This document shows, in pieces, positions 2,697 through 62,525 of a stretch of 64,000 bases of DNA. This DNA is from Liolophura sinensis. Lineage: Eukaryota > Mollusca > Polyplacophora > Chitonida > Chitonidae. The translations under genes were made by a program, and so were the position numbers. The notes below the pieces were generated by a model. It ran no database searches and was not told the origin of the DNA. It saw only the letters and a list, made by a program, of their open reading frames with translations. The first letter of the stretch is position 1; each line of letters begins with the position of its first letter. The stretch is from positions 48,954,984 through 49,018,983 of the forward strand of contig NC_088300.1 of assembly GCF_032854445.1 (NCBI RefSeq). Direction: 5' to 3'.

Positions 2697-3431
2697 TCAG
2701 GTCCCCGAGGGGTAGGGGTTTATTGTAGGGCCTAGGTAAAAAGCCGAGTCACACCAATAATCGATAGGCTGAGACACCTGCTCTAAGACAACAAGTCTCT
2801 CGTCTTGACCTTCCGCCAGAGGACCTCTGTCTCGAAAATAGTTACACCGCCGGGCCCCATGTCTCTCATCGTAAGGTGGGGCTAAAATGTCAATGAAAGC
2901 TGCCGGGCCGGACTCGGTGGTTATTTCATGAATGTTTCCTTCGGACGGCGTCAGGACAACACAACTGTCATCTTCAGAAACGACTTTGTCCACATGTTTC
3001 TTCGCTTCTCTCAACATTCCTAATTCCCGCAGTCTGCGGAAAGCTTCGTTACCATGGGGACTTACACCCTCGACCTGACTGTAACTCCTGACTCTGACAG
3101 AACCATAGATAACTCTACACAGTCCAAACATGCCCGGATGATCGTGGAGAGGAAGGCGAGCTCCTCTTTTCAATACGAAAATACCCATGGAAAAGACGTC
3201 ACCGTCCCATAAATGAATGTACGTAACTGGCGCTACGCCAGTCTTTACCGACACGGGCTGTTCGTTTAACACGAGGTTTCTGTCAAAGTTCACGTCCTTA
3301 GCTGTTACACGGCTTAACAAAGAACCCAAGAACGCGATATTTTCTTGGAAAAGACTGTCACTGGTATCTGTTAAATCCCGGGCAAATGTCCGGTAAGCGT
3401 GCTGCGCTACTCTCTGAATCAGAGTAGCCAT
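2697..3431 (-). CDS. ADO: 2-aminoethanethiol (cysteamine) dioxygenase, intronless
   Basis: ADO is a non-haem Fe(II) cupin enzyme. It oxidises cysteamine to hypotaurine and oxidises N-terminal cysteines of regulatory proteins, feeding the oxygen-sensing Cys/Arg N-degron pathway. The 244-residue protein is close to the human length (270). It has MATLIQRVAQ at the start, matching the family N-terminus MASLIQRIA, so I chose this ATG over the one 102 bases upstream (3533). The cupin metal ligands are visible as PLHDHPGM (His96, His98) and GNIHEI (His168). Cys196 and Tyr198 (RCNYF) correspond to the residues that cross-link in mammalian ADO. VTYIHLW and GPAAFIDILAPPYD are further family blocks. No intron interrupts the frame. 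The gene is head-to-head with BIN3 across about 1 kb. An ATTAAA on the - strand near 2665 may serve as poly(A) signal. Confidence 0.95.
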   Translation of the reverse strand: MATLIQRVAQHAYRTFARDLTDTSDSLFQENIAFLGSLLSRVTAKDVNFDRNLVLNEQPVSVKTGVAPVTYIHLWDGDVFSMGIFVLKRGARLPLHDHPGMFGLCRVIYGSVRVRSYSQVEGVSPHGNEAFRRLRELGMLREAKKHVDKVVSEDDSCVVLTPSEGNIHEITTESGPAAFIDILAPPYDERHGARRCNYFRDRGPLAEGQDERLVVLEQVSQPIDYWCDSAFYLGPTINPYPSGT

Positions 3432-4441
3432 TTTGTTGTGGCGAGTAACATCAGCGCCCCCTATAAACACACCGACTGGGGGACGACCAGGCGTTGTTGT
3501 CCGAAGAAATGATTCAAGAAAGTGAGCCAACAAAGGCCTTCACCATGGATTTAACAAGTTCTAAACTGAGTAAATAGTGTCTCCACCAGACAAATTACAC
3601 GCTTACACATCAAATTTGCCATTCTCAGGTTAAAATTGTGGGAAATGAATGCGGAAGTATGCCACTGTCAGTAACATCATAAGGCCGTACGGGATTGTCG
3701 GATTCGTCGAACACCTAGGCCTATACTAGCGCAGCTGTAGTTACATTAAGCGAAGTAAACCTTTCTTTCAAGTGTAAACTCTCAGGATTAAAAGTTTGTC
3801 CGTTCATGTGACAATAGCAGTATGAATACTCACACATTTAAAATTAAAGTGTCACAGTGACACTTGACTATCCACCCCATTACAATCTAGACACAAATGT
3901 ATCATCAGGTAATAGAACGACACACTGTAAGAGTAAAGAAAAACATTGCAAAACTGAGCGAAGTTAAGAGGAGTTGCGAACATAAATGCATTTTTAATGA
4001 TACAGATACTCATTGAAACATAAATTTAGCTCAGCCTCTCGCGATGTTATTGATGTATAACTAAGGCCAATTTCTCGTCAGCGTTATTGTTTATTTACAC
4101 ATGCCTGTCTTACTCTTCCTCTTTCACTTTGTATCCCGCATTAATCTCCCATATAAGGAAGTGTGTTTGATGCCACACCTAACACCGCTTTAGGCTCCAA
4201 TCTACCTTGTGATATCAGACCAGGATTTCCTAAATATGATGTTTTAATTGTGACGTGCTGAACAAGCTTGCTGAATTTCAGGTGGTTTTCTCCCTATTAC
4301 CTTGCAGTCTATCACGATCATAACTTTGTTTTAGATAATGCTGATATGTTGTATTAAACAAATATTCCAAACAGAAGTGTCCTTTTTATTTACAGTTCCC
4401 ATTTGTGTATAAAATGAGATGAACATGACGAAGTGTGAACA
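3432..4441. promoter_or_regulatory. Shared divergent promoter region of ADO and BIN3
   Basis: This 1-kb interval separates the ATG of ADO (- strand) from the ATG of BIN3 (+ strand). Both 5' UTRs and transcription starts must lie here unless there are upstream noncoding exons. No TATA box, CpG island or other element could be assigned with confidence by eye. The promoter role is inferred from gene arrangement only. Confidence 0.5.
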
Positions 4442-5326
4442 ATGAGTAGGTAAGAATCAGGCAAATGTCTGGTGGGAAGATGTACCCAAGCCACCCCCTG
4501 ACTTATCACAGTTATCAGTCATGATCGAGTTTAGTTGTTCAACAATTATTGAACTCAGACTAGGTCAATTTTCTTTGAGCCTTTTGAACCAGCTACTTTC
4601 TGCATAGGCTGAAAAATGTTTTTTCTTAATTTTAAGTGCTTGCAAAGCCACATTTGCATTGTTTGTATTTTCACAGATCTTGTTATCCAACTGAGCACAT
4701 TTGATTTTACCCAACACTTTAAAGGTGAATTTAATTACAGCTTATATGTTTCTCTGTTTCAGGAACCTGTTCAGTCGGTACAGTGCTCCTAAAAAGAGTG
4801 TTATATCCCGCACTGTGAGTTCTGTCTTTTAAGTATAGATTTCAGTTAGATTTAGTAAGTGAGAAAAGAAGAGGGAGTTTTAGCATTGTTTTGAAGCATA
4901 TAAATATAGTTTTCATTAATGTATTTTCTTGATCAGTGTGTTGTCCACCCAAGAATGTTGCACTTCTCTGGTGGAGGTCAGGTTTTTGGAGGAGAAAACC
5001 AGACAGAGACCTTCAGGAGGAAAAGACACAGAAACCTTCAGGAGGAAAGCAATCAGAGCCTTCAAGGTGCCAGACAGAACCCTGAGAAAGCCGCCACACC
5101 TTACTAGCTACCTTGCAGAACTCCTGAAATTGAATACTATATTATGACAGCTCCAGAAAAGTTCCACATTTGATAAATATATACAAAAAATATGTAATTT
5201 AAGGGTATCAAAACATAGAAATATACTTGTGTTGGAAAATTTTTAAGTGGTGACATTTCAGGACTTAGGTTAAGAACTGAATGTTATGTTACTTTGCTAT
5301 TAGTTACTACATCTTATATGTTCATT

Positions 5327-5369
<43 letters not shown>

Positions 5370-8300
5370 TTACAGACAGAACGGGAAGTTGAGAGGGAGG
5401 CTAAGAAATTAGAAGGGTAAGAATGGTGCTACAGAAGTGCTTTCTTAAATTCAACCTAACATTATTTAAATGTAAAAGTGACATATATTTTGGCATCATC
5501 TCTATTTTCCTTTCCACATTAGGTATTCAGCCATAGAGAAGGTGTTTATTAGCTGGTAGGGAGTGCCATTAGCAGTAGGGAGTGCCATTAGCGGTAGGGA
5601 GTGCCAGTTCCGAAACAAAAGGACTGATGTTTAATTTATTTCTGACTTCTTATTATGACTTAATAGTCACTAGATATCTGCTGAAATGTGCTTCCAGCCA
5701 TCAGAAATACCAACCTTCCAGGGCCTTGGCAGCATGTGGATCTAAGATCTACTGGGCTAAGATACATCACATGGCGTTTCAAACATTTTATCATCCGTTT
5801 TTAGGCCTCAAATAAACAAATTGTGAAAAGTACTCAGGATGTGTCTCTAACTATCTACAGGCCTAGGTGACACCTGTCAGATCGAGATGGTTGACCCACT
5901 TTTGAAAATACCTGACAAAGTCTATGATTGGGCATTGTTACTTAGTATTACTCTGATTCATGATCAGCCTTGTTCAGGAACTGTGATTTATTGCTTTGTT
6001 CTCAATTCACATTCAAAATGGGTTATTATGCAGAATAACAAAATGTAATGGGTTGTTAATTAACAGTGCCAGCTTGGTCTGAAGACATCGTGAATTCATA
6101 TATATGCATTTGTTTAGAAAACTTGAGTACTTTACTGCATTATGTAGAAGTCATTTCACCATTTTAACATTTTTTTTTTGTTACAGGCTGGAAGATACAA
6201 CAAAAAAGTTGTACAAAGACATGAAGAGATGTATAGAATCTTGTACAGGTATGTTGGTACATCAAAATTGTGCAACTCTTTTCGAAATGGTTTGTGTCTA
6301 GATTAAAACACCATAAGGCAAAGTGGTATACAAGATATCGGTGAAAAATGTGGGTGAAGGTGGTTAAGGTGGGTGAGGTAAGTGATGGACCTGCCAGTTG
6401 AGCCATCCGATGACCAGATACTTCCATGGCCAGATACAGCTCCTGTAGGATAGGCTGTGACTTCTACGTCAGTAGGGTTATCAGGTACATAATGAGGTTC
6501 TGTGGTTTTGTGTTTTTTCCTGACTGTTATGCACCCAGTGATCACTGTGGTTCCCTATAGACAGTCAGGCACACATTGAGTTTTTATGGTTTCCTCTAGA
6601 CTGCTAACTACTAAAGGAGGTTGTACGGTTTCCTCCTGACCATCATGTACCTAGTGAGGCTCTCTGATTTCCTCTACTCTTTGAAGTACCTAGTTAGGCT
6701 CTGTAGTTTCCTCTAGACTGTTAAGTACTTAGGGAGGTTGTATGGCTTCCTCCTGACCATCAGTTACCTAGCAAGGCCTTGTGGTTTCCTCCAGACAGTC
6801 AAGTACTTAGGGAGGTGAGGGCCAAGGGAAGATCTGTCAGCAACCTACGAATGGTTGTGGGTTTCCCCTGGACTCTGCCTTGGTTCCCCGCACAGTAATG
6901 CTAGCCACCATTGGTATTTGTGAAATGTTCTTAAATACAGCGTAAAACTCTGCTGAAATGAAATAAAATAAATAACTAAATAGTGCAGGAAGTTGTATGG
7001 TTTCCTCTTGACTGTAAGGTGTCTAGTGGGGTTATGTAGTGTCCTCCTGACCATCAGGTACTGTTGAGGTGCTGTGGTTTCCTCTAGACTATTAAGTACT
7101 AAGCAAGGTTGTATGGTTTCCTCTTGACTGCAAGGTATCTAGAGGTTATGTAGCCTCCTCCTGACCGCCATGTACCGTTCCTATTGAGGTTATGTAGCTT
7201 CCTTCTGACTGCCATGTACCGTCTCTATTGAGGTTATGTAGCTACCTCCTGACTGTCATTTACCATACCTATTGAGGTCATGTAGCCTCCTTCTGACTGC
7301 CATGTACTGTACCTATTGAGGTTATGTAGCTTCCTCCTGACTGTCATGTACCATACATATTGAGGTCATGTAGCCTCCTTCTGACTGCCATGTACTGTAC
7401 CTGTTGAGGTCATGTAGCCTCCTTCTGACTGCCATGTACCGTACCTATTGAGGTTATGTAGCTTCCTCCTGACTGTCATGTACCGTACCTATTAAGGTTA
7501 TGTAGCCTCCTTCTGACTGCCATGTACTGTACCTATTGAGGTTATGTAGCCTCCTTCTGACTGCCATGTACTGTACCTGTTGAGGTCATGTAGCCTCCTT
7601 CTGACTGCCATGTACCGTACCTATTGAGGTTATGTAGCTTCCTCCTGACTGTCATGTACCATACCTATTGAGGTTATGTAGCGTCCTTCTGACTGCCATG
7701 TCGTCCCTGGCTGGCCGTGGAACTAGCCTTTGCGCTCTCAGCTTTTGTTTAGTGGTCACCCAGTCTGAAGGTGGTGTGACATTACGTTCTGTCGCTCTTA
7801 GAGGCAGGACGTATTCACTAGCTTCTTTGTAAATAGCCTGTACATAGTTTAGTGCATTTCCACTTTGTAATATCGTATCTATTTTGCACTCGGCATCCAC
7901 ACTGTTCCAAACGCATAGTTGTGGTCATCTCTTTAGGGTAGTAGTTCTCGCCCTGGCCCACAATGTTGTGGGCAGGGCGAGTAAATAGACCCTTAAGCCT
8001 TAAGCTTGTAATACAGGGAGGTGTACAACCGGTTGAAGTATACAATCGGCTAAAGGAGTTAGTGGGGAGTGGGCCTAATGTCCTAAAGGGACTAATCAAT
8101 GTCTCTAGAGATGTCTGGAATGTTACAGTGGCTACGCAAACTGTGAAGGAACAGCTGTTGGCTAGCGGCTTCTCATTTAACGGGGTAGATTGTCCAATAT
8201 ATGATGTGGAGGAGCAAAGGCTCCTGGTTAGATGTCGATGTCCGATCGAGGTGCCCGATGACACTATTGGAGGTTTGATAAGCAGGTAAACAAGCAGGCC

Positions 8301-11300: not shown

Positions 11301-14300
11301 AGACCCCAAGGTATTTTTAGATGGATCCCCCATCAAGGTTGTGCCAGAGGCAAAATTCCTCGGGGTGATCTTCGATAAGCACCTTACATTTAAATCTCAC
11401 ATTAATTATCTTAGAGCCAGATGCCTAAAGGCGCTTGATATTTTGAAGGTTGTCTCTAGTGCTCGATGTGGAGGGGATCATAAAACCCTACTTCAGCTCT
11501 ATCGAGCACTGATTGGTTCTAAGCTAGACTATGCCTGCAGTGTTTATGGAGGTGCGTCACGCTCCCAGTTGCAGAAACTCAATACTGTACATCACCAGGC
11601 CCTACGGTTGTGCTTAGGTGCTTTCCGTACCTCTCCTGTGGAGAGTCTGTATGTTGAAGCAAACGAGCCTCCCCTGGAGCTTCGAAGAACTAAACTATCC
11701 TTACAGTATATCACCAAGCTTAGAGCCAATCCATCCAACCCAGCCTTTGATTGTGTCTTCCATCCGGAATTTGTAGACTTATATGCTCAGAAGCCATCCA
11801 TTGTTCCTCCACTGGGTGTCCGCATCCAGGAACATGTGCAAGCAGCTGGACTTGGGCTGGATACTATCACCCCCATACGCATCCAGGAAGATCCACCGTG
11901 GTTATGTCCTGAGCCTCAGGTTGATACCTCGCTCTCCTCCCTGAAGAAATGTTCCACCAACCCTTTAGTATACCAGCAGGAGTTTAGTAATATGTGTTCA
12001 AAGTATCCATTTTATCACCGCATATTCACTGACGATTCCAAGAATGATGATGGCGTGGCTTCTGCCGCTGTCCTTGGACCCAGAACCGTTTCAACTCGGT
12101 TTCCAAATTCCTGTTCTGTATTTACTGCGGAAGCCAAGGCAATTTTGTGCGCACTTCGGTCCATTCCAGAGCTAGGAGGTAGCAGATTTCTCATCTGCTC
12201 TGAGTCCCTTTCCTGCCTCCAGGCAATTCAGGCTAGTTCGCCTGTACATCCAGACATTCTGTCTATCAGGGAGATGTTTAAACGACTTAATGAAGATTTT
12301 GTCATTGTCTTTTGTTGGGTGCCCGGGCATATGGGTATCCCTGGGAATACTGCTGTTGATGAAGCCGCGAAGGCGGCTTTGCATTCCGTTACTACCCAAA
12401 CTGACGTTCCATATTCGGACTTGCGTTCACTTATTTGCTCCTATATCAAGCGCTTGTTTCAGGCTCAATGGGATGGCCAGACAACCAACAAACTGCATGA
12501 TATTCGTCAGTTTGTTGGTCCAGCGCCTTCCCTTTCACGGCATCGTCTCCGCTCTTGCATTTTGAGGAGGTGTTGTATCGGTCACACACGTGCTACGCAT
12601 GGGTATTTGTTAAAAGGAGAAGATGCTCCTCATTGCTTTGCTTGCATTGCTTCACAGTCAAGCACATATTGCTTGACTGTGGCGACTTTGCTCCTGTACG
12701 AGATTCCTTTTATCACGTGAGCTCTCTTTCAGAACTTTTCAATTCTGTAGAAAGTGATACTATTTTTGACTTTCTCTCTGCCATTGGTATGGCAGGAAAG
12801 CTGTAATTTTAAACTACCGTCTGTGTTTGTTATGTGACTTCTGGTGTCCTTTTTGACTGAATAGTAAATGAATTATCCGTAGTAGATCGACTATTTGACG
12901 TTTTATTGTCGCGATAAAACTGAGATATTGTTGAAAGAGACGTTAAAACTTTCGCTCACTCACTCACTCTGACTGCCATGCACTGTACCTATTGAGGTTA
13001 TGTAGCCTCCTTCTGACTGTCATGTACCGTACCTATTGAGGTTATGTAGCCTCCTCCTGACTGTCATGTACTGTATCTATTGAGATTATGTAGCGTCCTC
13101 CTTACTGTCATGTACTGTACCTGTTGAGGTTATGTAGCTTCCTCCTGACTGTCATGTACCATACCTATTGAGGTCATGTAGCCGCCTTTTGACTGCCATG
13201 TACCGTACCTATTGAGGTTATGTAGCGTCCTTCTGACTGTCATGTACCGTACCTATTGAGGTTATGTAGCCTCCTTCTGACTGCCATGTACTGTACCTAT
13301 TGAGGTTATGTAGCGTCCTTCTGACTGCCATGTACTGTACCTATTGGGGTTATGTAGCCTCCTTCTGACTGCCATGTACAGTACCTATTGAGGTTATGTA
13401 GCTTCCTTCTGACTGCCATGTACCGTACCTATTGAGGTTATGTAGCTTCCTCCTGACTGTCATGTACCGTACCTGTTGAGGGTATGTAGCCTCCTTCTGA
13501 CTGCCATGTACTGTACCTATTGAGGTTATGTGGCTTCCTCCTGACTGTCATGTACCATACCTATTGAGGTTATGTAGCGTCCTTCTGACTGCCATGTACC
13601 ATACCTATTGAGGTTATGTAGCTTCCTTCTGACTGCCATGTACCATACCTATTGAGGTTATGTAGCTTCCTCCTGACTGTCATGTACCATACCTATTGAG
13701 GTTATGTAGCTCCCTCCTGACTGTCATGTACCGTACCTATTGAGGTTATGTAGCCTCCTTCTGACTGCCATGTACTGTACCTGTTGAGGTTATGTAGCCT
13801 CCTCCTGACTGTCATGTACCGTACCTATTGAGGTTATGTAGCCTTCTCCTGACTGTCATGTACTGTGCCTATTGAGGTTATGTAGCCTCCTTCTGACTGT
13901 CATGTACCGTACCTATTGTGGTTATGTAGCCTCCTCCTGACTGTCATGTACCGTACCTATTGAGGCTATGTAGCCTCCTCCTGACTGTCATGTACAGTAC
14001 CTATTGAGGTTATGTAGCCTCCTCCTGACTGCCATGTACTGTACCTATTGAGGTTATGTAGCTTCCTCCTGACTGTCATGTACCATACCTATTGAGGTTA
14101 TGTAGCCTCCTCCTGACTGCCATGTACTGTACTTGTTGAGGTTATGTAGCCTCCTTCTGACTGCCATGTACTGTACCTATTGAGGTTATGTAGCGTCCTC
14201 CTGACTGTCATGTACCATACCTATTGAGGTTATGTAGCGTCCTTCTGACTGCCATGTACCATACCTATTGAGGTTATGTAGCTTCCTTCTGACTGCCATG

Positions 14301-17300
14301 TACTGTACTTGTTGAGGTTAAGTAGCGTCCTTCTGACTACCATGTACCGTACCTATTGAGGTTATGTAGCTTCCTTCTGACTGCCATGTACCGTACCTAT
14401 GGAGATTATGTAGTGTCCTCCTTACTGTCATGTACAGTACCTATTGAGGTTATGTAGCTTCCTCCTGACTGTCATGTACCGTACCTATTGAGGTTATGTA
14501 GCCTCCTTCTGACTGCCATGTACCGTACCTATTGAGGTTATGTAGCTTCCTCCTGACTGTCATGTACCATACCTATTGAGGTTATGTAGCGTCCTTCTGA
14601 CTGCCATGTACCGTACCTATTGAGGTTATGTGGCTTCCTCCTGACTGTCATGTACCATACCTATTGAGGTTATGTAGCGTCCTTCTGACTGCCATGTACC
14701 ATACCTATTGAGGTTATGTAGCTTCCTTCTGACTGCCATGTACCATACCTATTGAGGTTATGTAGCTTCCTCCTGACTGTCATGTACCATACCTATTGAG
14801 GTCATGTAGCCTTCTTCTGACTGCCATGTACCGTACCTATTGAGGTTATGTAGCTCCCTCCTGACTGTCATGTACCGTACCTATTGAGGTTATGTAGCCT
14901 CCTTCTGACTGCCATGTACTGTACCTGTTGAGGTTATGTAGCCTCCTCCTGACTGTCATGTACCGTACCTATTGAGGTTATGTAGCCTTCTCCTGACTGT
15001 CATGTACTGTGCCTATTGAGGTTATGTAGCCTCCTTCTGACTGTCATGTACCGTACCTATTGTGGTTATGTAGCCTCCTCCTGACTGTCATGTACCGTAC
15101 CTATTGAGGCTATGTAGCCTCCTCCTGACTGTCATGTACCATACCTATTGAGGTTATGTAGCCTCCTCCTGACTGCCATGTACTGTACCTATTGAGGTTA
15201 TGTAGCTTCCTCCTGACTGTTGTGTACTGTACTTGTTGAGGTTATGTAGCCTCCTTCTGACTGCCATGTACTGTACCTATTGAGGTTATGTGGCTTCCTC
15301 CTGACTGTCATGTACCATACCTATTGAGGTTATGTAGCCTCCTTCTGACTGCCATGTACCATACCTATTGAGGTTATGTAGCTTCCTTCTGACTGCCATG
15401 TACTGTACTTGTTGAGGTTATGTAGCGTCCTTCTGACTACCATGTACCGTACCTATTGAGGTTATGTAGCTTCCTTCTGACTGCCATGTACCGTACCTAT
15501 TGAGATTATGTAGTGTCCTCCTTACTGTCATGTACAGTACCTATTGAGGTTATGTAGCTTCCTCCTGACTGTCATGTACCGTACCTATTGAGGTCATGTG
15601 GCCTCCTTCTGACTGCCATGTACTGTACCTATTGAGGTTATGTGGCTTCCTCCTGACTGTCATGTACCATACCTATTGAGGTTATGTAGCTTCCTTCTGA
15701 CTGCCATGTACCATACCTATTGAGGTTATGTAGCTTCCTTCTGACTGCCATGTACTGTACTTGTTGAGGTTATGTAGCGTCCTTCTGACTACCATGTACC
15801 GTACCTATTGAGGTTATGTAGCTTCCTTCTGACTGCCATGTACCGTACCTATTGAGATTATGTAGTGTCCTCCTTACTGTCATGTACAGTACCTATTGAG
15901 GTTATGTAGCTTCCTCCTGACTGTCATGTACCGTACCTATTGAGGTCATGTAGCCTCCTTCTGACTGCCATGTACCGTACCTATTGAGGTTATGTAGCTT
16001 CCTCCTGACTGTCATGTACCATACCTATTGAGGTTATGTAGCGTCCTTCTGACTGCCATGTACCATACCTATTGAGGTTATGTAGCGTCCTTCTGACTGC
16101 CATGTACCATACCTATTGAGGTTATGTAGCGTCCTTCTGACTGCCATGTACCGTACCTATTGAGGTTATGTAGCTTCCTTCTGACTGTCATGTACCGTAC
16201 CTATTGAGGTTATGTAGCTTCCTTCTGACTGCCATGTACCGTACCTATTGAGGTTATGTAGCGTCCTTCTGACTGTCATGTACCGTACCTATTGAGGTTA
16301 TGTAGCCTCCTTCTGACCGCCATGTACCGTATCTATTGAGGTTAATGTAGCGTCTTCTGACTGTCATGTACCGTACCTATTGAGGTTATGTAGTCTCCTC
16401 CTGACTGTCATGTACTGTACCTATTGAGGGTTATGTAGCCTCCTCCTGACTGTCATGTACTGTACCTATTGAGGTTATATAGCGTCCTTCTGACTGCCAT
16501 GTACCGTACCTATTGAGGTTATGTAGCGTCCTTCTGACTGCCATGTACCGTACGTATTGAGGTCATGTAGCCTTCTTCTGACTGCCATGTACCGTACCTA
16601 TTGAGGTTATGTAGCTTCCTTCTGACTGCCATGTACCGTACCTATTGAGGTTATGTAGCGTCCTTCTGACTGCCATGTACCGTACGTATTGAGGTTATGT
16701 AGCGTCCTCTGACTGCCATGTACCATACTTATTGAGGTTGTGTAGCTTCCTCCTGACTGTCATGTACCGTACCTATTGAGGTTAAGTGGTTTTGTCCAGA
16801 TACACATTGAGATCATGGCTTCCTCCATTTGGGTTGCCGTCATATGAGTGACAAATTTTCAAAACACTAATGAGCAAAATAAAAAGTTAATAATTCTTGA
16901 AGAATTTGTTTGTAGTGTCCATCTCTTGTCTGAATGAATTTCTGTATGTTGGAAAATTCTTGAGTTAGGTGCCACGTTTTAAAGAAAACACATGTATGCC
17001 TTGAAAGATTTGAAAATATGCAAATTTCCGAGTTTCATTTCTACTCCTAATAGCCACAGCAAAAGCCGAAAGAAAAATTCCCCAGGGATCTTCTTGCTAG
17101 TGCCCTCTGTCAGCAGGATACAGAACTAAAATCTTTGGTAGAAGATTGGGACCATGCTGCTGTACGATTGGAGCATCATCAACAAGAACTTGTGAGTATT
17201 GGCCAATCACTGAGGACATGTCCAAAACGATAGCATGCAGTCAGCATGTGGAATATTACAAATAAAACTGATAATATAATGTGGTGTGGAACTGCCAAAA

Positions 17301-20253
17301 TTTCAGCTTAAAGGTATTATAGATAAAAAAAAACTGTCATGGCCTTTCTGCACAAATTGAAACAAGTGCCAATAATTTTATTGTACTTTGAACTCAATTC
17401 AGGCTAGAATTTAAAGGGTTTCACATGTTGCAAACATGTAGGTTTGTATTATTGGTTTTTAACCAGTTATTGATTACGGTACCTCTGATTTGATAATATA
17501 TGGATGTCTTGGTTTTGTTTTTTCAGAATTCCTGCTGTCAGAAAGTGGTGATGGAACCTACTAAAAAGTAAGTCCGATTCAGCATATTTGGTAACAGACT
17601 AAATTCTTTCAGCAGAGCATATAAACCTTTTCCATGCTATTTTGCAGATTAAGCAGTATTTTCCCGGGTGTTCAGGCCGCAATAAAGAAGAGGCAGCAAA
17701 GTCTACAGGTATGTTCTATTGTCATACAGTCATTATTTTGTGAAGAAGGTGAAAGTTATTGTTGGTTGAAGCTTTAAACATGATGATGCTGTGAACAGTG
17801 AATTGTAGAAGATCAATGTGTCAAAATGTTTTTTTGTTTTTTTTTTTAACTTATTGCATTATTAATACTTATGATAATGTTGTTGTTCAATGATGACATT
17901 TCTTTGATAGGAGTATAACAAATGCCAGGCCAAAATTGACAAATACCAAGAGCGAGAGAGAAACTGGGGGCAATGTGGTTAAGAGAGAGACAGTAAGTTC
18001 ATTTACGAATTTATACTTCATTTTTTTAACATTTCTATGTAACATATGTTGCAACAGCTTTGTGAAAAGGGAGCCTATGGGAGAGCTTATAATTTGTCTG
18101 ACTTTCAGCAAAAACTTTCTGCACTTTAGTCAACTGGACCAATCAGTTCAGACAGATGTCATAAAATATCTTAACGGTCATCTGATCTACGTTTTAATAT
18201 TTAATATTCATTAATATTCAGAGTTTTCTCCTAAGAGACACACTAGTGATGTTTGGAGAGTAAAGAAAGAATGCCAAAGAAGAATTCCAGTGCCTATGGT
18301 TTTTAGTATTACACTCCATTGATTTTTTCAGAGTAAAAAAGTTTTACAAAATGCTAAAGAAGAATTTGAGACCCAGCACTCCACCCTAATGGAAGAGATG
18401 CCAAAGCTGTATGAGGCCAGGACAGATTACTTCCAGCCTAGTTTTGAGGCACTGGTGAGGTCACAGGTACTGTATCAAAGTCACAGGTGTGCTGGACAGG
18501 GCAGATTACTTCCAGCCTAGCTTTAAGGCCCTAGTAGGGGAACAGGTGCTGTATTAAAAGTCACAGGTGTGTGGGACAGGACAGATTACTTCCACCCTAA
18601 CCTTGAGACATTAGTGAGGAAGCAGGCAGTGTATCATAGCCACAGGAGTTTTGTGACAGGGCAGATTACTTCCACCCTAACCTTGAAGCATTAGTGAGGA
18701 AGCAGGTACTGTATCATAGCCACAGGTGTTTGTGACAGGGCAGATTACTTCTACCCTAGCCTTGAGACATTAGTGAGGAAGCAGGTACTGTATCATAGCC
18801 ATAGGTGTTTGTGACAGGGCAGATTACTTCCACCCAAGCCTTGAGACATTAGTAAGGAAGCAGGTACTGTATCATAGCCACAGGGGTTTGTGACAGGATA
18901 GATTATTTCAACCCAAGCCTTGAGGCATTAGTGAGGAAGCAGGTACTGTATCATAGCCACAGGTGTTTGTGACAGGGGAGATTACTTCCACCCTAACCTT
19001 GAGACATTAGTGAGGAAGCAGATACTGTATCATAGCCACAGGTGTTTGTGACAGGACAGATTACTTCCACCCTAACCTTGAGGCATTAGTGCGGAAGCAG
19101 GTACTGTATCATAGCCACAGGTGTTTGTGACAGGGGAGATTACTTCCACCCTAGCCTTGAGACATTAGTGAGGAACCAGGTACTGTATCATAGTCACAGG
19201 TGTTTGAGACAGGGGAGATTACTTCCACCCTAACCTTAAGGCATTAATGAGGAAGCAGGTACTGTATCATAGCCACAGGTGTTTGAGACAGGGAAGATTA
19301 CTTCCACCCTAGCCATGAGACATTAGTGAGGAAGCAGGTACTGTATCATAGCCACAGGGGTTTGTGACAGGATAGATTACTTCCACGGAAGCCTTGAGGC
19401 ATTAGTGAGGAAGCAGGTACTGTATCATAGCCACAGGGTTTGTGACAGGATAGATTACTTCCACCCTGACCTTGAGACATTAGTGAGGAAGCAGGTACTG
19501 TATCATAGCCAGAGGTGTTTGTGACAGGGCAGATTACTTCCACCCAAGCCTTGAGACATTAGTGAAGAAGCAGGTACTGTATCATAGCAGGTGTTTTATG
19601 ATAGGGGAGATATCTTCCACCCTAGCCTTGAGATATTAGTCAGAAAGCAGGTACTGTATCATAGCCACAGGGGTTTGTGACAGGATAGATTACTTCCACC
19701 CTAGCCTTGAGACATTAGTGAGGAAGCAGGGAATGTATCATAGCCACAGGTGTTTGTGACAGGGCAGATTACTTCCACCCTAGCCTTGAAACATTAGTGA
19801 GGAATCAGGTACTGTATCATAGCCACAGGGGTTTGTGACAGGGTAGATTACTTCCACCCTAACCTAGAGGCATTAGTGAGGAAGCAGGTACTGTATTATA
19901 GCCACAGGTGTTAATGGAAATGCTGGTTCTTTATATAAGGTTCATTTAGTGAAAATTATTGGATTAGGTGTTCATCTGATAATATTTACTGTATCAGTTA
20001 GCACTGGTCAAGATGAAGGTTGGATGTAAATTGTAAAACCTGTAAACATACGGGTAGTCTTTACTGGTTGGTTAGCCAGACCTGATCCCTCATATTAAAT
20101 CTTCAGGTTTCCTATCACGCAGAGGCTTTCAAGATATACAGTGAGCTCTCCCACCAAATGACGGACAAAGATGGCCTCTCAGATGAAGATTACAGCGCTG
20201 TGATGCAACAAAAACTGACAGACATCAAAGCCCTGTCAATCACTGTTGATTGA
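4442..20253 (+). CDS. BIN3: BAR-domain protein, bridging integrator 3 (10 coding exons, two frame-disrupting indels)
   Basis: BIN3 is an N-BAR protein of the amphiphysin/Rvs161 family without an SH3 domain; it binds curved membrane and influences actin organisation. Exons by GT-AG rules: 4442-4449 (MSR), 4763-4814, 5376-5416, 6187-6248, 17054-17191, 17527-17567, 17648-17708, 17911-17992, 18332-18466 and 20107-20253 (stop). Diagnostic pieces are APKKSVISRT, EREVEREAKKLEG, LYKDMKR, DLLASALCQQD, VVMEPTKKLSSIFPGVQAA, QAKIDKYQE, TDYFQPSFEALVRSQ and VSYHAEAFKIYSEL, all in family order. With the two indels allowed for, the length is about 254-255 residues, against 253 in human. Exon 5 is one base too long (GGG at 17085-17087) and exon 8 shifts frame in the GAGCGAGAGAGAAA tract near 17950-17963. 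Either the assembly is wrong or this allele is broken; the otherwise intact exons and splice sites favour sequence error. Intron 4 is about 10.8 kb and filled by repeats. Confidence 0.9.
5329..5366. repeat. (TA)n microsatellite in BIN3 intron 2
   Basis: About 18 uninterrupted TA units lie just before the polypyrimidine-poor acceptor of BIN3 exon 3 (exon starts at 5376). They are therefore part of the 3' splice-site neighbourhood. Length polymorphism here could in principle affect acceptor use. Confidence 0.9.
5551..5607. repeat. Three-copy 19-bp tandem repeat
   Basis: The unit AGCAGTAGGGAGTGCCATT repeats three times with one or two mismatches in BIN3 intron 3. No function is apparent. Confidence 0.8.
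6480..7140. repeat. Diverged left edge of the 44-bp satellite array
   Basis: Degenerate units of roughly 44 bp can be followed, with the pattern TACCTAGTGAGG...TGTGGTTTCCTCCTGACCATCAGG. They are much less alike than the units to the right, and 6795-6985 is interrupted by a SINE-like insertion. A degenerate edge beside a homogeneous core is what unequal exchange predicts. The array lies in BIN3 intron 4. Confidence 0.8.
6800..6985 (+). mobile_element. SINE-like element inserted in the satellite edge
   Basis: The block has GTGGGTTTCCCCTGGACTCTGCC, then a CACAGTAATGCTAGCCACCATT block, GTGAAATGTTCTTAAATACAGC, GTAAAAC, and an A/T tail of AAATAAAATAAATAA type. This is the same family as the fragments at 24.8, 25.4, 25.5, 26.7, 28.4 and 63.3 kb, here in the + orientation with the tail at the 3' end. 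I recognise the family as a repeat common in mollusc genomes, but could not check it against a database. Confidence 0.6.
7141..7700. repeat. 44-bp satellite array, left block
   Basis: About 13 homogeneous units with the core ATTGAGGTTATGTAGC followed by TTCTGACTGCCATG and TACCGTACCT. The period is 44 bp. The block stops exactly at TCTGACTGCCATG (7688-7700), where the retrotransposon begins. Confidence 0.95.
7701..7967 (-). pseudogene. Inverted 5' segment of the retrotransposon (ORF1 N-terminal fragment)
   Basis: Coding-like sequence here reads on the - strand, opposite to the rest of the element: one frame gives GENYYPKEMTTTMRLEQ, and after a shift VDAECKIDTILQ and NALNYVQAIYKEASEYV. The junction with the forward part is a near-perfect foldback at 7947-7981 (CTCGCCCTG...CAGGGCGAG). 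This layout, inverted upstream part then forward downstream part between target-site copies, is the signature of twin-primed insertion known for LINEs. The assignment to ORF1 is inferred from position and coding character, not from a database match. Confidence 0.6.
7963..9226 (+). pseudogene. Retrotransposon ORF1 (gag-like), frame-disrupted
   Basis: The first part (7963-8286) encodes an RRM-like region, for example LKLVIQGGVQPVEVYNRLKE and NVTVATQTVKEQLLASGF. It ends at a TAA in front of a zinc-knuckle remnant, KQAGHFQKDCP, that lies in another frame and lacks its first two cysteines, so bases are missing near 8283-8293. The second part continues in the new frame as an acidic D/N/E-rich stretch (about 8320-8460), a serine-rich linker and a lysine-rich end (KKSRKKKKNK). 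The gag-like protein of this group coats the element RNA. ORF1 stops ten bases before the ORF2 start. Confidence 0.75.
9236..12806 (+). pseudogene. Retrotransposon ORF2: endonuclease, reverse transcriptase, RNase H; inactivated
   Basis: The APE-type endonuclease (9236-about 10000) shows LQWNCRGL, LQET, GDFNAH and SDHFPT. An in-frame TGA at 10112-10114 follows DCK, and a frameshift lies near 10360-10368. The reverse transcriptase then shows PGPDDI, NYRPISLTS, FFDLEKAYD and QGVPQGSILSVTLF. It jumps directly to an ERQLQICLNK block, so the segment with the catalytic aspartate pair (usually YxDD) is deleted without loss of frame at about 11168. RNase H follows with FTDDSK, TAEAKA, CSESLS (the usual aspartate is glutamate) and WVPGHMGIPGN. 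A frameshift near 12640 separates the last cysteine/histidine block (HILLDC, to 12806). These lesions make the protein non-functional. Confidence 0.9.
12968..16830. repeat. 44-bp satellite array, right block (about 87 units)
   Basis: The units continue directly from the left block after the retrotransposon. Core: ATTGAGGTTATGTAGC, then a CTCC/TTCC variant, TGACTG[CT]CATG and TAC[CT]GTACCT. Variant units recur at fixed distances: GAGATTATGTAGTGTCC at 15501 and 15853 (352 bp, eight units) and a related unit at 14401 (1100 bp, 25 units). The variant TTGTGGTTATG occurs at 13916 and 15060 (1144 bp, 26 units). The last units degrade at 16700-16830. The array fills BIN3 intron 4; 44 is not a multiple of three and no protein is expected from it. 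Confidence 0.95.
18418..19912 (+). repeat. 79-bp tandem array derived from the end of BIN3 exon 9 and its 5' splice site
   Basis: The first unit is the true exon 9 end plus intron start (CAGATTACTTCCAGCC ... CAG|GTACTGTATCA). It is followed by about 18 more units of CAGATTACTTCCACCCTA ... GAGGAAGCAG|GTACTGTATC ... CACAGGTGTTTGTGACAGG. The unit is 79 bp. Most units keep both the reading TDYFHP-LE-LVRKQ and a CAG|GTACTG donor-like junction. Copies after the first are intronic, and reading through the first donor meets a TAG within about 20 codons, so use of a later donor would truncate the protein. Confidence 0.9.
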
Positions 20254-55724: not shown

Positions 55725-56065
55725 TCAAAATCCAGTATCCATGTGCTACACAGCAAAAGTATTCATGTGCCTCACTGATGCACTGTTCATGTGCTACACT
55801 GAGATAATATTCGTCACATTAAGTATCAATGTGCTACACTTATACAATTTCCATGTGCTACACTTATATAGTATCCATGTGCTACACTTATACAGTATCC
55901 ATGTGCTACACTGAGACAGTATCCATGTGCTACACTTATATAGTATCCATGTGCTACACTGAGACAGTATCCATATGCTGCACTGAGACAGTATCCATGT
56001 GCCACTGTGAAACAGGATCCCCGTGCTAAAGTGAAACAGTATCCCACACTGAGACAGTATCACAT
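55725..56065. repeat. 24-bp minisatellite
   Basis: Unit ATCCATGTGCTACACTTATA or its CACTGAGACAGT variant, period 24, about 14 units, with edge copies degraded on both sides. Because 24 is a multiple of three, both strands stay open for about 70 codons (VAHGYCIS-type repeats). The open frames are explained by the repeat and are not taken as genes. Confidence 0.9.
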
Positions 56066-56229
56066 TCAACATTATTTCAGCCTTATCCAGTGAAGCTCTG
56101 TCAATGAAGCCATAATATATTTTGTCTCCTGGAACAGTCCTTGCAGAAGGTCCTAGACATGAAACCACACCCACTAACATTTCAAAGGTTTTATCCCAAG
56201 ATGTCAGTTTATTGTCTGCCGGTTGATAC

Positions 56230-57665
56230 TTTTGTTGTTTCATCTGATAATGTCTCTATTTTTGTTAGATGATTCCAAACAGTTTTCCAAACAGTGTTAT
56301 TCAACAACTCTTTCATCAGATTATTTCAATTCATTTGTCAAAGGATGTCAGTTTTTCTGTCAAAGGATTTCAATTCTCCTGTTAAATGACTTCAGTTCTC
56401 TTGCCAAATGATTTCATTCTCCTGTCAAATGATTTCAGTTCTCCTGTCCGATGATTTCATTCTCCTGTCAAATGAATTCAAGTTTTCTGTCAAATGATTT
56501 CATTCTCCTGTTAAATGATTTCATTCTCCTGTTAAATGATTTCATTCTCCTGTCAAATGAATTCAAGTTTTCTGTCAAATGATTTCATTCTCCTGTTAAA
56601 TGATTTCAGTTCTCTTGCCAAATGATTTCATTCTCCTGTCAAATGATTTCAGTTCTCCTGTCTGATGATTTCATTCTCCTGTCAAATGAATTCAAGTTTT
56701 CTGTCAAATGATTTCATTCTCCTGTTAAATGATTTCAGTTCTCTTGCCAAATGATTTCATTCTCCTGTCAAATGATTTCAGTTCTCCTGTCCAATGATTT
56801 CATTCTCCTGTCAAATGAATTCAAGTTTTCTGTCAAATGATTTCATTCTCCTGTTAAATGATTTCAGTTCTCTTGCCAAATGATTTCATTCTCCTGTCAA
56901 ATGATTTCAGTTCTCCTGTCAGATGATTTCATTCTCCTGTCAAATGAATTCAAGTTTTCTGTCAAATGATTTCATTCTCCTGTTAAATGATTTCAGTTCT
57001 CTTGCCAAATGATTTCATTCTCCTGTCAAATGATTTCAGTTCTCCTGTCCAATGATTTCATTCTCCTGTCAAATGAATTCAAGTTTTCTGTCAAATGATT
57101 TCATTCTCCTGTTAAATGATTTCAGTTCTCTTGCCAAATGATTTCATTCTCCTGTCAAATGATTTCAGTTCTCCTGTCAGATGATTTCATTCTCCTGTCA
57201 AATGAATTCAAGTTTTCTGTCAAATGATTTCATTCTCCTGTTAAATGATTTCAGTTCTCTTGCCAAATGATTTCATTCTCCTGTCAAATGATTTCAGTTC
57301 TCCTGTCCAATGATTTCATTCTCCTGTCAAATGAATTCAAGTTTTCTGTCAAATGATTTCATTCTCCTGTTAAATGATTTCAGTTCTCTTGCCAAATGAT
57401 TTCATTCTCCTGTCAAATGATTTCAGTTCTCCTGTCAGATGATTTCATTCTCCTGTCAAATGAATTCAAGTTTTCTGTCAAATGATTTCATTCTCCTGTT
57501 AAATGATTTCAGTTCTCATGCCAAATGATTTCATTCTCCTGTTAAATGATTTCAGTTCTCATGCCAAATGATTTCATTCTCCTGTCAAATGATTTCAGTT
57601 CTCCTGTCAGATGATTTCATTCTCCTGTCAAATGAATTCAAGTTTTCTGTCAAATGATTTCAATA
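56230..57665. repeat. Minisatellite with 43-, 129- and 258-bp hierarchy
   Basis: The basic dimer is AAATGATTTCATTCTCCTGT plus AAATGATTTCAGTTCTCCTG (about 43 bases). Three dimers make a 129-base unit marked by GAATTCAAGTTTTCTG. The mark falls at 56688, 56817, 56946, 57075, 57204, 57333 and 57462, exactly 129 apart, then 57634 (172 later, one extra dimer). CCAATG and CAGATG variants alternate from one 129-base unit to the next, giving a 258-base period. Left-edge copies are simpler. Confidence 0.95.
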
Positions 57666-61939: not shown

Positions 61940-62525
61940 TTGGTTTCTCACTTGCATCAGGAGGAGAATGGTTAACTACCTAGTGAGATAAGGTGGTTTC
62001 CTCCTTTCATCAGGAGGAGGATGGTTAACTACCTAGTGAGATAAGGTGGTTTCTTCTTTTGCATCAGGAAGAGGATGGTTAGTTACCTTGGGAGATATGG
62101 TGATTTCCTCCCTGCACCAGAAGGAGAAGGTTTAGCTACCTAGTGAGATATGGTGGTTTCTTCTTTTGCATCAGGAAGAGGATGGTTAGTTACCTAGAGA
62201 GATATGGTGATTTCCTCCCTGCACCAGAAGGAGAATGTTTAGCTACCTAGTGAGATATGGTGGTTTCCTCCTTGCATCAGGAGGATGGTTAGATAATTAG
62301 TAAGTCAGTGGTTTTCTCCTTGCATCAGGAGGAGAATGGTTAGCTACCTAGTGAGATACAGTGGTTTCCTCCTTGCATCAGGAGAATGGTTACATACCTA
62401 GTGAGATACAGTGATTTCTCCCTTGCCTCAGGAGAATGATTACCTTCCTAATGAGATACAGTGGTTTCCTCCTTGCATCAGGAGAATGGTTAGCTGCCTA
62501 GTGAGATATGGTGGTTTATATGTAA
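61940..62525. repeat. Minisatellite of about 50-53 bp
   Basis: About eleven units of TACCTAGTGAGATATGGTGG, TTTCCTCCTTGCATCAGG and AGGAGAATGGTTAGC, some lacking AGG and so 50 rather than 53 bases long. It lies in the 3' UTR or just downstream of the terminal receptor exon. The first about 37 bases of the unit resemble the diverged edge units of the 44-bp satellite at 6.5-7.1 kb. Confidence 0.9.

Follow-up and report, generated by a model that had tools for sequence, protein, structure and literature searches.

"Mirages" are minisatellite-like duplications of exon-intron boundaries, splice signals included, which have been described in lancelet genes (PMC3087553, PMC3902484). The reported examples comprise Adh3, troponin C, the globins BflGb6 and BflGb9, and PGBD5, with PGBD5 and troponin C added by the second report (PMC3902484). 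Many mirage units carry AG/GT signals and the arrays are described as unstable in length; data on Adh3 as well as RT-PCR suggest regular splicing, which is reported as undisturbed (PMC3087553). Two other systems are related at least in part. In the minisatellite of human IFI6 (6-16), two downstream repeat units are reported to be used as splice donors (PMC4526556, citing Turri et al. 1995), and the fission-yeast genes SPOG_01682 / SOCG_00815 are described as containing 24-bp exonic AGGT repeats, with an intron that extends over copies of a piece of exon (PMC4974935).

The locus considered here lies in a stretch of 64,000 nt, called the window below. A tandem array begins within the penultimate coding exon of a BAR gene of the BIN3/amphiphysin type and occupies most of the following intron (Table 1). 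We read it, with good confidence, as a neutral minisatellite of the mirage type, derived from the exon-intron boundary and most likely spliced out together with the intron.

Host gene and likely authentic donor

Exons of the host gene were located by tblastn, using the human BIN3 protein sequence as a query. Pieces with E below 0.1 are found at 17075, 17646, 18329 and 20092, and weaker candidates, with E from 0.2 to 14, at 4788, 6185, 17536 and 17911. The exon in which the array begins is matched with E of 5e-14; its start at 18332 was inferred from the reading frame and the acceptor TTTTTTCAG. At the other end of the intron, the acceptor AG occupies 20105-20106 and is directly followed by the last exon. 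The alignment to the solved amphiphysin 1uru (E 5e-5) has no gap at the junction between these two exons. The upstream exon had initially been numbered exon 9, which is provisional, and its end had been described as invariant within the BAR domain, which it is not: the solved structures of amphiphysin (1uru) and BIN1 (2fic) differ at this stretch. A search of the open-licence literature for BIN3 gene structure returned nothing useful. In the weaker BIN3-like exon at 17911-17993, the likeness appears by eye to shift frame, which could reflect an assembly error, an allele or decay of the gene.

The peptide joined from the exons of the window scores 63.8 bits against the Pfam BAR model with the donor at 18466|18467, and 54.6 bits if this donor is skipped. 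Another donor-like word, CTG|GTGAGG at 18455-18460 (GT at 18455), is located inside the exon, in frame and 12 nt upstream, and its modelled U1 pairing (-8.6) is better than that of the downstream donor; its use, however, would delete VRSQ in frame and bring the BAR score from 63.8 down to 50.7 bits, and it was rejected as the real donor. The BAR score is highest with 18466|18467, which points to this site as the likely real donor, and it is so called below.

Table 1. Positions of the array, its units and the flanking exons in the window
Feature	Position	Strand	Remarks
Second-last coding exon, BIN3-like BAR gene (SKKVLQ...EALVRSQ), source of the repeat	18332..18466	+	135 nt
Unit 1	18418..18496	+	Real exon end, 49 bp (18418-18466), and 30 bp of intron (18467-18496)
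Likely authentic GT donor, CAG|GTACTG	18467..18468	+	Backed by Pfam BAR scores
Unit 2	18497..18576	+	Between exon and array consensus; decoy CAG|GTGCTG at 18545|18546
First in-frame stop (TAG) on skipping the real donor	18518..18520	+	Precedes boundary decoys of units 2-19
Units 3-19	18577..19912	+	Homogenised; mean pairwise identity 0.903; CAG|GTACTG exact in 14/17; last unit truncated
Non-repeat rest of the intron	19913..20106	+	194 bp; ends ...TCTTCAG
Last coding exon (VSYHAEAFKIYSEL...ALSITVD, stop)	20107..20253	+	tblastn match to human BIN3, E 2e-7

Structure and history of the array

Tandem Repeats Finder places the array at 18418-19912, with a period of 79, 18.9 copies, 88% matches, 1% indels and a score of 2210, which is far beyond chance; the limits are identical to those given in the initial annotation, which had counted about 18 copies of 79 bp. 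Unit-by-unit alignment divides the array into 19 units, so that units 2-19 make up 18 intronic units, of which unit 19 is truncated. In these 18, the exon part shares 65-82% identity with the real exon end of 49 bp, and the likeness is thus not confined to the junction; identity at this level over 49 bp rules out a coincidental match of a few bases. Nor is there a second source within the window, where a copy of the array sequence independent of BIN3 was looked for and where, once the array and the exon it comes from are set aside, blastn finds nothing better than E of 1.1. The proposal that the array was seeded by the exon-intron boundary is supported by both observations, i.e., homology over 49 exon bases and no other copy in the window.

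On the exon side, blastn of the consensus ran the alignment on to 18400 (80% over 91 bases). Anchored tests of such an upstream extension, the outcome of which varies with scoring, gave P of 0.015-0.20 (consensus), 0.23-0.42 (unit 1), 0.015-0.07 (unit 2) and 0.20-1.0 (unit 3). Given these borderline values, a likeness reaching further into the exon was not accepted and the division into 49 + 30 bp was retained; the left edge of the unit is not sharp, and could be as much as 18 bases further upstream.

Other repeats and elements are present in the window. One 44-bp minisatellite forms two blocks upstream in the same gene region, at 7142-7701 (12.7 copies) and 12968-16784 (86.8 copies), and between the blocks there is a LINE-like element, whose endonuclease and reverse transcriptase domains pass the Pfam cut-off and whose RNase H domain narrowly misses it. 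The word TCTGACTGCCATG is seen at both edges of this element, as if the element had been inserted inside the 44-bp array; the word belongs to the repeat unit and is no proof of insertion. Minisatellites at 6589-6815 and 61941-62517 have units that look by eye akin to those of the 44-bp repeat, with the words CCTCCT and TACCTA, and are perhaps members of a dispersed family. A repeat of 43 bp, with a higher-order period of 129 bp, occupies 56336-57662 (10.3 copies, 95%), and an open frame of 153 codons on the minus strand, 55794-56255, is overlapped by a 24/72-bp repeat (55822-56044). A perfect 168-bp tandem duplication at 2198-2521 is either very recent or an assembly effect, and about 180 bp from it, at 2697-3539 on the minus strand, there is an open frame matching 2-aminoethanethiol dioxygenase.

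The history of the BIN3-associated array can be approached through the differences between its units. The consensus of units 3-19 departs from the exon unit at 13 positions within the first 75 columns; at these diagnostic columns, unit 2 is exon-like in 8 of 13 cases and units 3-19 in 0-2. Identity to the consensus is 79-80% for units 1 and 2 and 87-97% for the other 17, the value of 87% belonging to the truncated last unit with gaps counted. Among units 3-19, which are 83-96% identical pairwise (90.3% on average), neighbours are no more alike than in shuffled order (0.899 vs 0.903, P 0.85), and ladder-like spread, under which adjacent units should resemble each other more, was rejected. Together with the intermediate character of unit 2, this is consistent with amplification in a burst. 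We propose that a segment of about 79 bp over the end of the BIN3-like exon and the start of the intron was duplicated in tandem, probably by slippage or unequal exchange. One early duplication would have been followed by divergence of a copy and then by the burst that amplified this copy into the intron, whereupon the amplified copies would have gathered mutations under no detectable constraint.

The same divergence bears on the idea that the array, or its copy number, was misassembled. The apparent frameshift in the nearby exon (about 17911-17993, by eye) suggests that small errors are possible in this assembly, and the copy number may be off; units that are 83-96% identical and have private changes are, however, unlike the near-identical units of an assembly stutter, and we give misassembly a very slim chance of being the explanation.

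Constraint was assessed in units 3-19, with units 1 and 2 omitted. The exon part of these units contains 28 distinct changes, 20 of them non-synonymous, 8 synonymous and none to a stop, where chance would give 20.1, 6.7 and 1.2, respectively (P 0.35 and 0.31). The donor 9-mer has 0.56 differing units per column (of 17), against 1.08 in the other columns, and five changes in all; five or fewer are found in 25 of the 67 nine-base windows, the donor itself included. No selection on either the reading frame or the donors is detectable in the substitution pattern of units 3-19, which is indistinguishable from neutral.

A different origin for the array would be the birth of the intron itself, with coding DNA containing AGGT duplicated in tandem and the copies turned into intron (the Rogers model). 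Fission-yeast introns that span 24-bp AGGT repeats (PMC4974935) and the cases reported in flies (PMC2891723) provide precedents of this kind. At our locus, the first intron codons of the unit read VLYHS in frame and resemble VSYHA of the next exon, and 0.2-0.6% of the sites in the window that start with GT or AGGT attain the peptide score of the consensus. The real intron start, in unit 1, nevertheless scores only at the 0.9-17% level in this peptide test, which was picked after the match had been seen, and at the DNA level the intron start of the unit and the beginning of the last exon agree at 11 of 30 positions (P from 0.52 to 1.0, depending on scoring). VVYYS of human BIN3 also resembles VLYHS of the unit. 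Moreover, the simple form of the model requires the intron to terminate in a copy of the exon end, directly next to the following exon, and of the last 49 bp of the intron 11 are identical to the exon end and 13 to the consensus. With the signal weak in the peptide and absent in the DNA, and with the 3' copy missing, we rejected intron birth and regard it as very improbable.

Decoy donors and reading frame

A GT dinucleotide is found at the donor position in 15 of the 18 intronic units, 14 of which have CAG|GTACTG, the exact 9-mer of the real donor, and one, unit 2, CAG|GTGCTG; it has been lost in unit 3 (GC), unit 8 (AT) and unit 17 (GG). The earlier view that most copies keep CAG|GTACTG and form a row of decoy donors is therefore upheld. 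Modelled U1 pairing is -7.1 kcal/mol for the real donor as well as for each of the 14 exact decoys, and thus weaker than with the full consensus (-11.6). Additional donor-like words recur within the units: 11 of the 19 have a second CAGGTG in their intron part, the first of them at 18484 and thus before the in-frame stop, and 13 of the 19 have GTGAGG in their exon part.

Whichever unit from 2 to 19 supplied the boundary decoy, the 17-residue tail would be identical, as translation would end at the same TAG. This stop lies 25 nt before the junction of unit 2 and at least 185 nt before those of later units that keep GT. Nonsense-mediated decay follows a 50-nt rule, by which only the unit-2 isoform would be stable. 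The exon, 135 nt long with the real donor, would grow to 214 nt with the boundary decoy of unit 2 and to 374 nt with that of unit 4, the next one with GT.

In the initial annotation, changes in splicing, truncated isoforms and an expression that depends on repeat length were named as possible consequences of the array; the sequence gives no detectable sign of selection maintaining the donors or the frame. The properties of the decoys raise the possibility that some donors of the array are used at a low regular rate and produce a BIN3 that ends in ...VRSQVLYQSHRCAGQGRLLPA, with transcripts from distant decoys decayed and the output tuned by array length. The preservation of the donor 9-mer in most intronic units, the position of all boundary decoys of units 2-19 downstream of the stop, and the repeat units of IFI6 reported as used donors (PMC4526556) all speak for active decoys. 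Against them stand the conservation of the donor, which is within the spread of other 9-mers; the size of the resulting exon, which in our judgement would be ordinary only via unit 2; and the lancelet mirages, described as free of splicing interference (PMC3087553, PMC3902484). On balance, we find such use unlikely. Still more doubtful, and in our view very unlikely, is that the array acts as a copy-number rheostat, in which a weak real donor faces identical 9-mers and a share of BIN3 transcripts that depends on array length ends early. Were this the case, a stable truncated isoform should arise from unit 2, and transcripts from the units further away should decay.

Under the neutral reading, the spliceosome most likely stays with the first donor, 18466|18467, which bounds the exon of 135 nt, presumably through exon definition; the entire array would then leave with the intron, and splicing would be normal. 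The array itself most likely arose passively, as a side effect of tandem duplication. Several observations count to some extent against neutrality: judged by modelled U1 pairing, the real donor is weak and not favoured over the decoys around it, the donor 9-mer is about half as variable as the other columns, and the exon frame is open in all 19 units, as expected by chance in about three cases in ten, the latter two being non-significant.

Comparison with described boundary minisatellites

The initial annotation implied that an array of this origin is a rarity, which was overstated, as the same structure has been published in the form of lancelet mirages, and a donor minisatellite has been cited for IFI6. 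Decapod cases were also looked for in the open-licence literature, and none were found there.

The fission-yeast genes share with our locus an intragenic tandem duplication that contains AGGT and is present in multiple copies. Their intron, however, crosses duplicates of an exonic segment, whereas here the repeat constitutes the 5' part of the intron and the 3' end is unrelated. The minisatellite of IFI6 is similar in being a tandem repeat located at a donor, with units that offer donors; two of its downstream units are reported as used, while the donors of our array are candidate sites read from the DNA. The repeat unit of IFI6 is 12 nt long and overlaps the exon.

The closest resemblance is to the mirages. 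According to their published descriptions, mirages and the array have in common a tandem minisatellite inside a gene (in our case between two coding exons), a unit that spans an exon-intron boundary (49 + 30 bp), and a splice signal in many but not all units (15 of 18). The boundary unit of mirages is described as escaping homogenisation, and here units 1 and 2 do so too, on the exon side only. The period of 79 bp falls within the range given for mirages, from tens of bp to about 160 bp, and mirages are reported to form from 5' as well as 3' boundaries. Some differences are also apparent: BflGb6 is described with 6 and 3 repeat units, whereas our array has 19, the real boundary included; and splicing and length variation have been examined in lancelets, while our array is known from the sequence of one haplotype. 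With four sequence-level features of mirages found at this locus, we call the array a probable member of this published kind. It is a large and clean minisatellite, in which the founder, the end of a coding exon with its donor, can be read directly. Fifteen donors with the real 9-mer in one intron (the real one and 14 exact decoys) amount to a natural test of how the spliceosome chooses among equals. If the host is not a lancelet, mirages would extend beyond the only group for which we found the term used in the open-licence literature.
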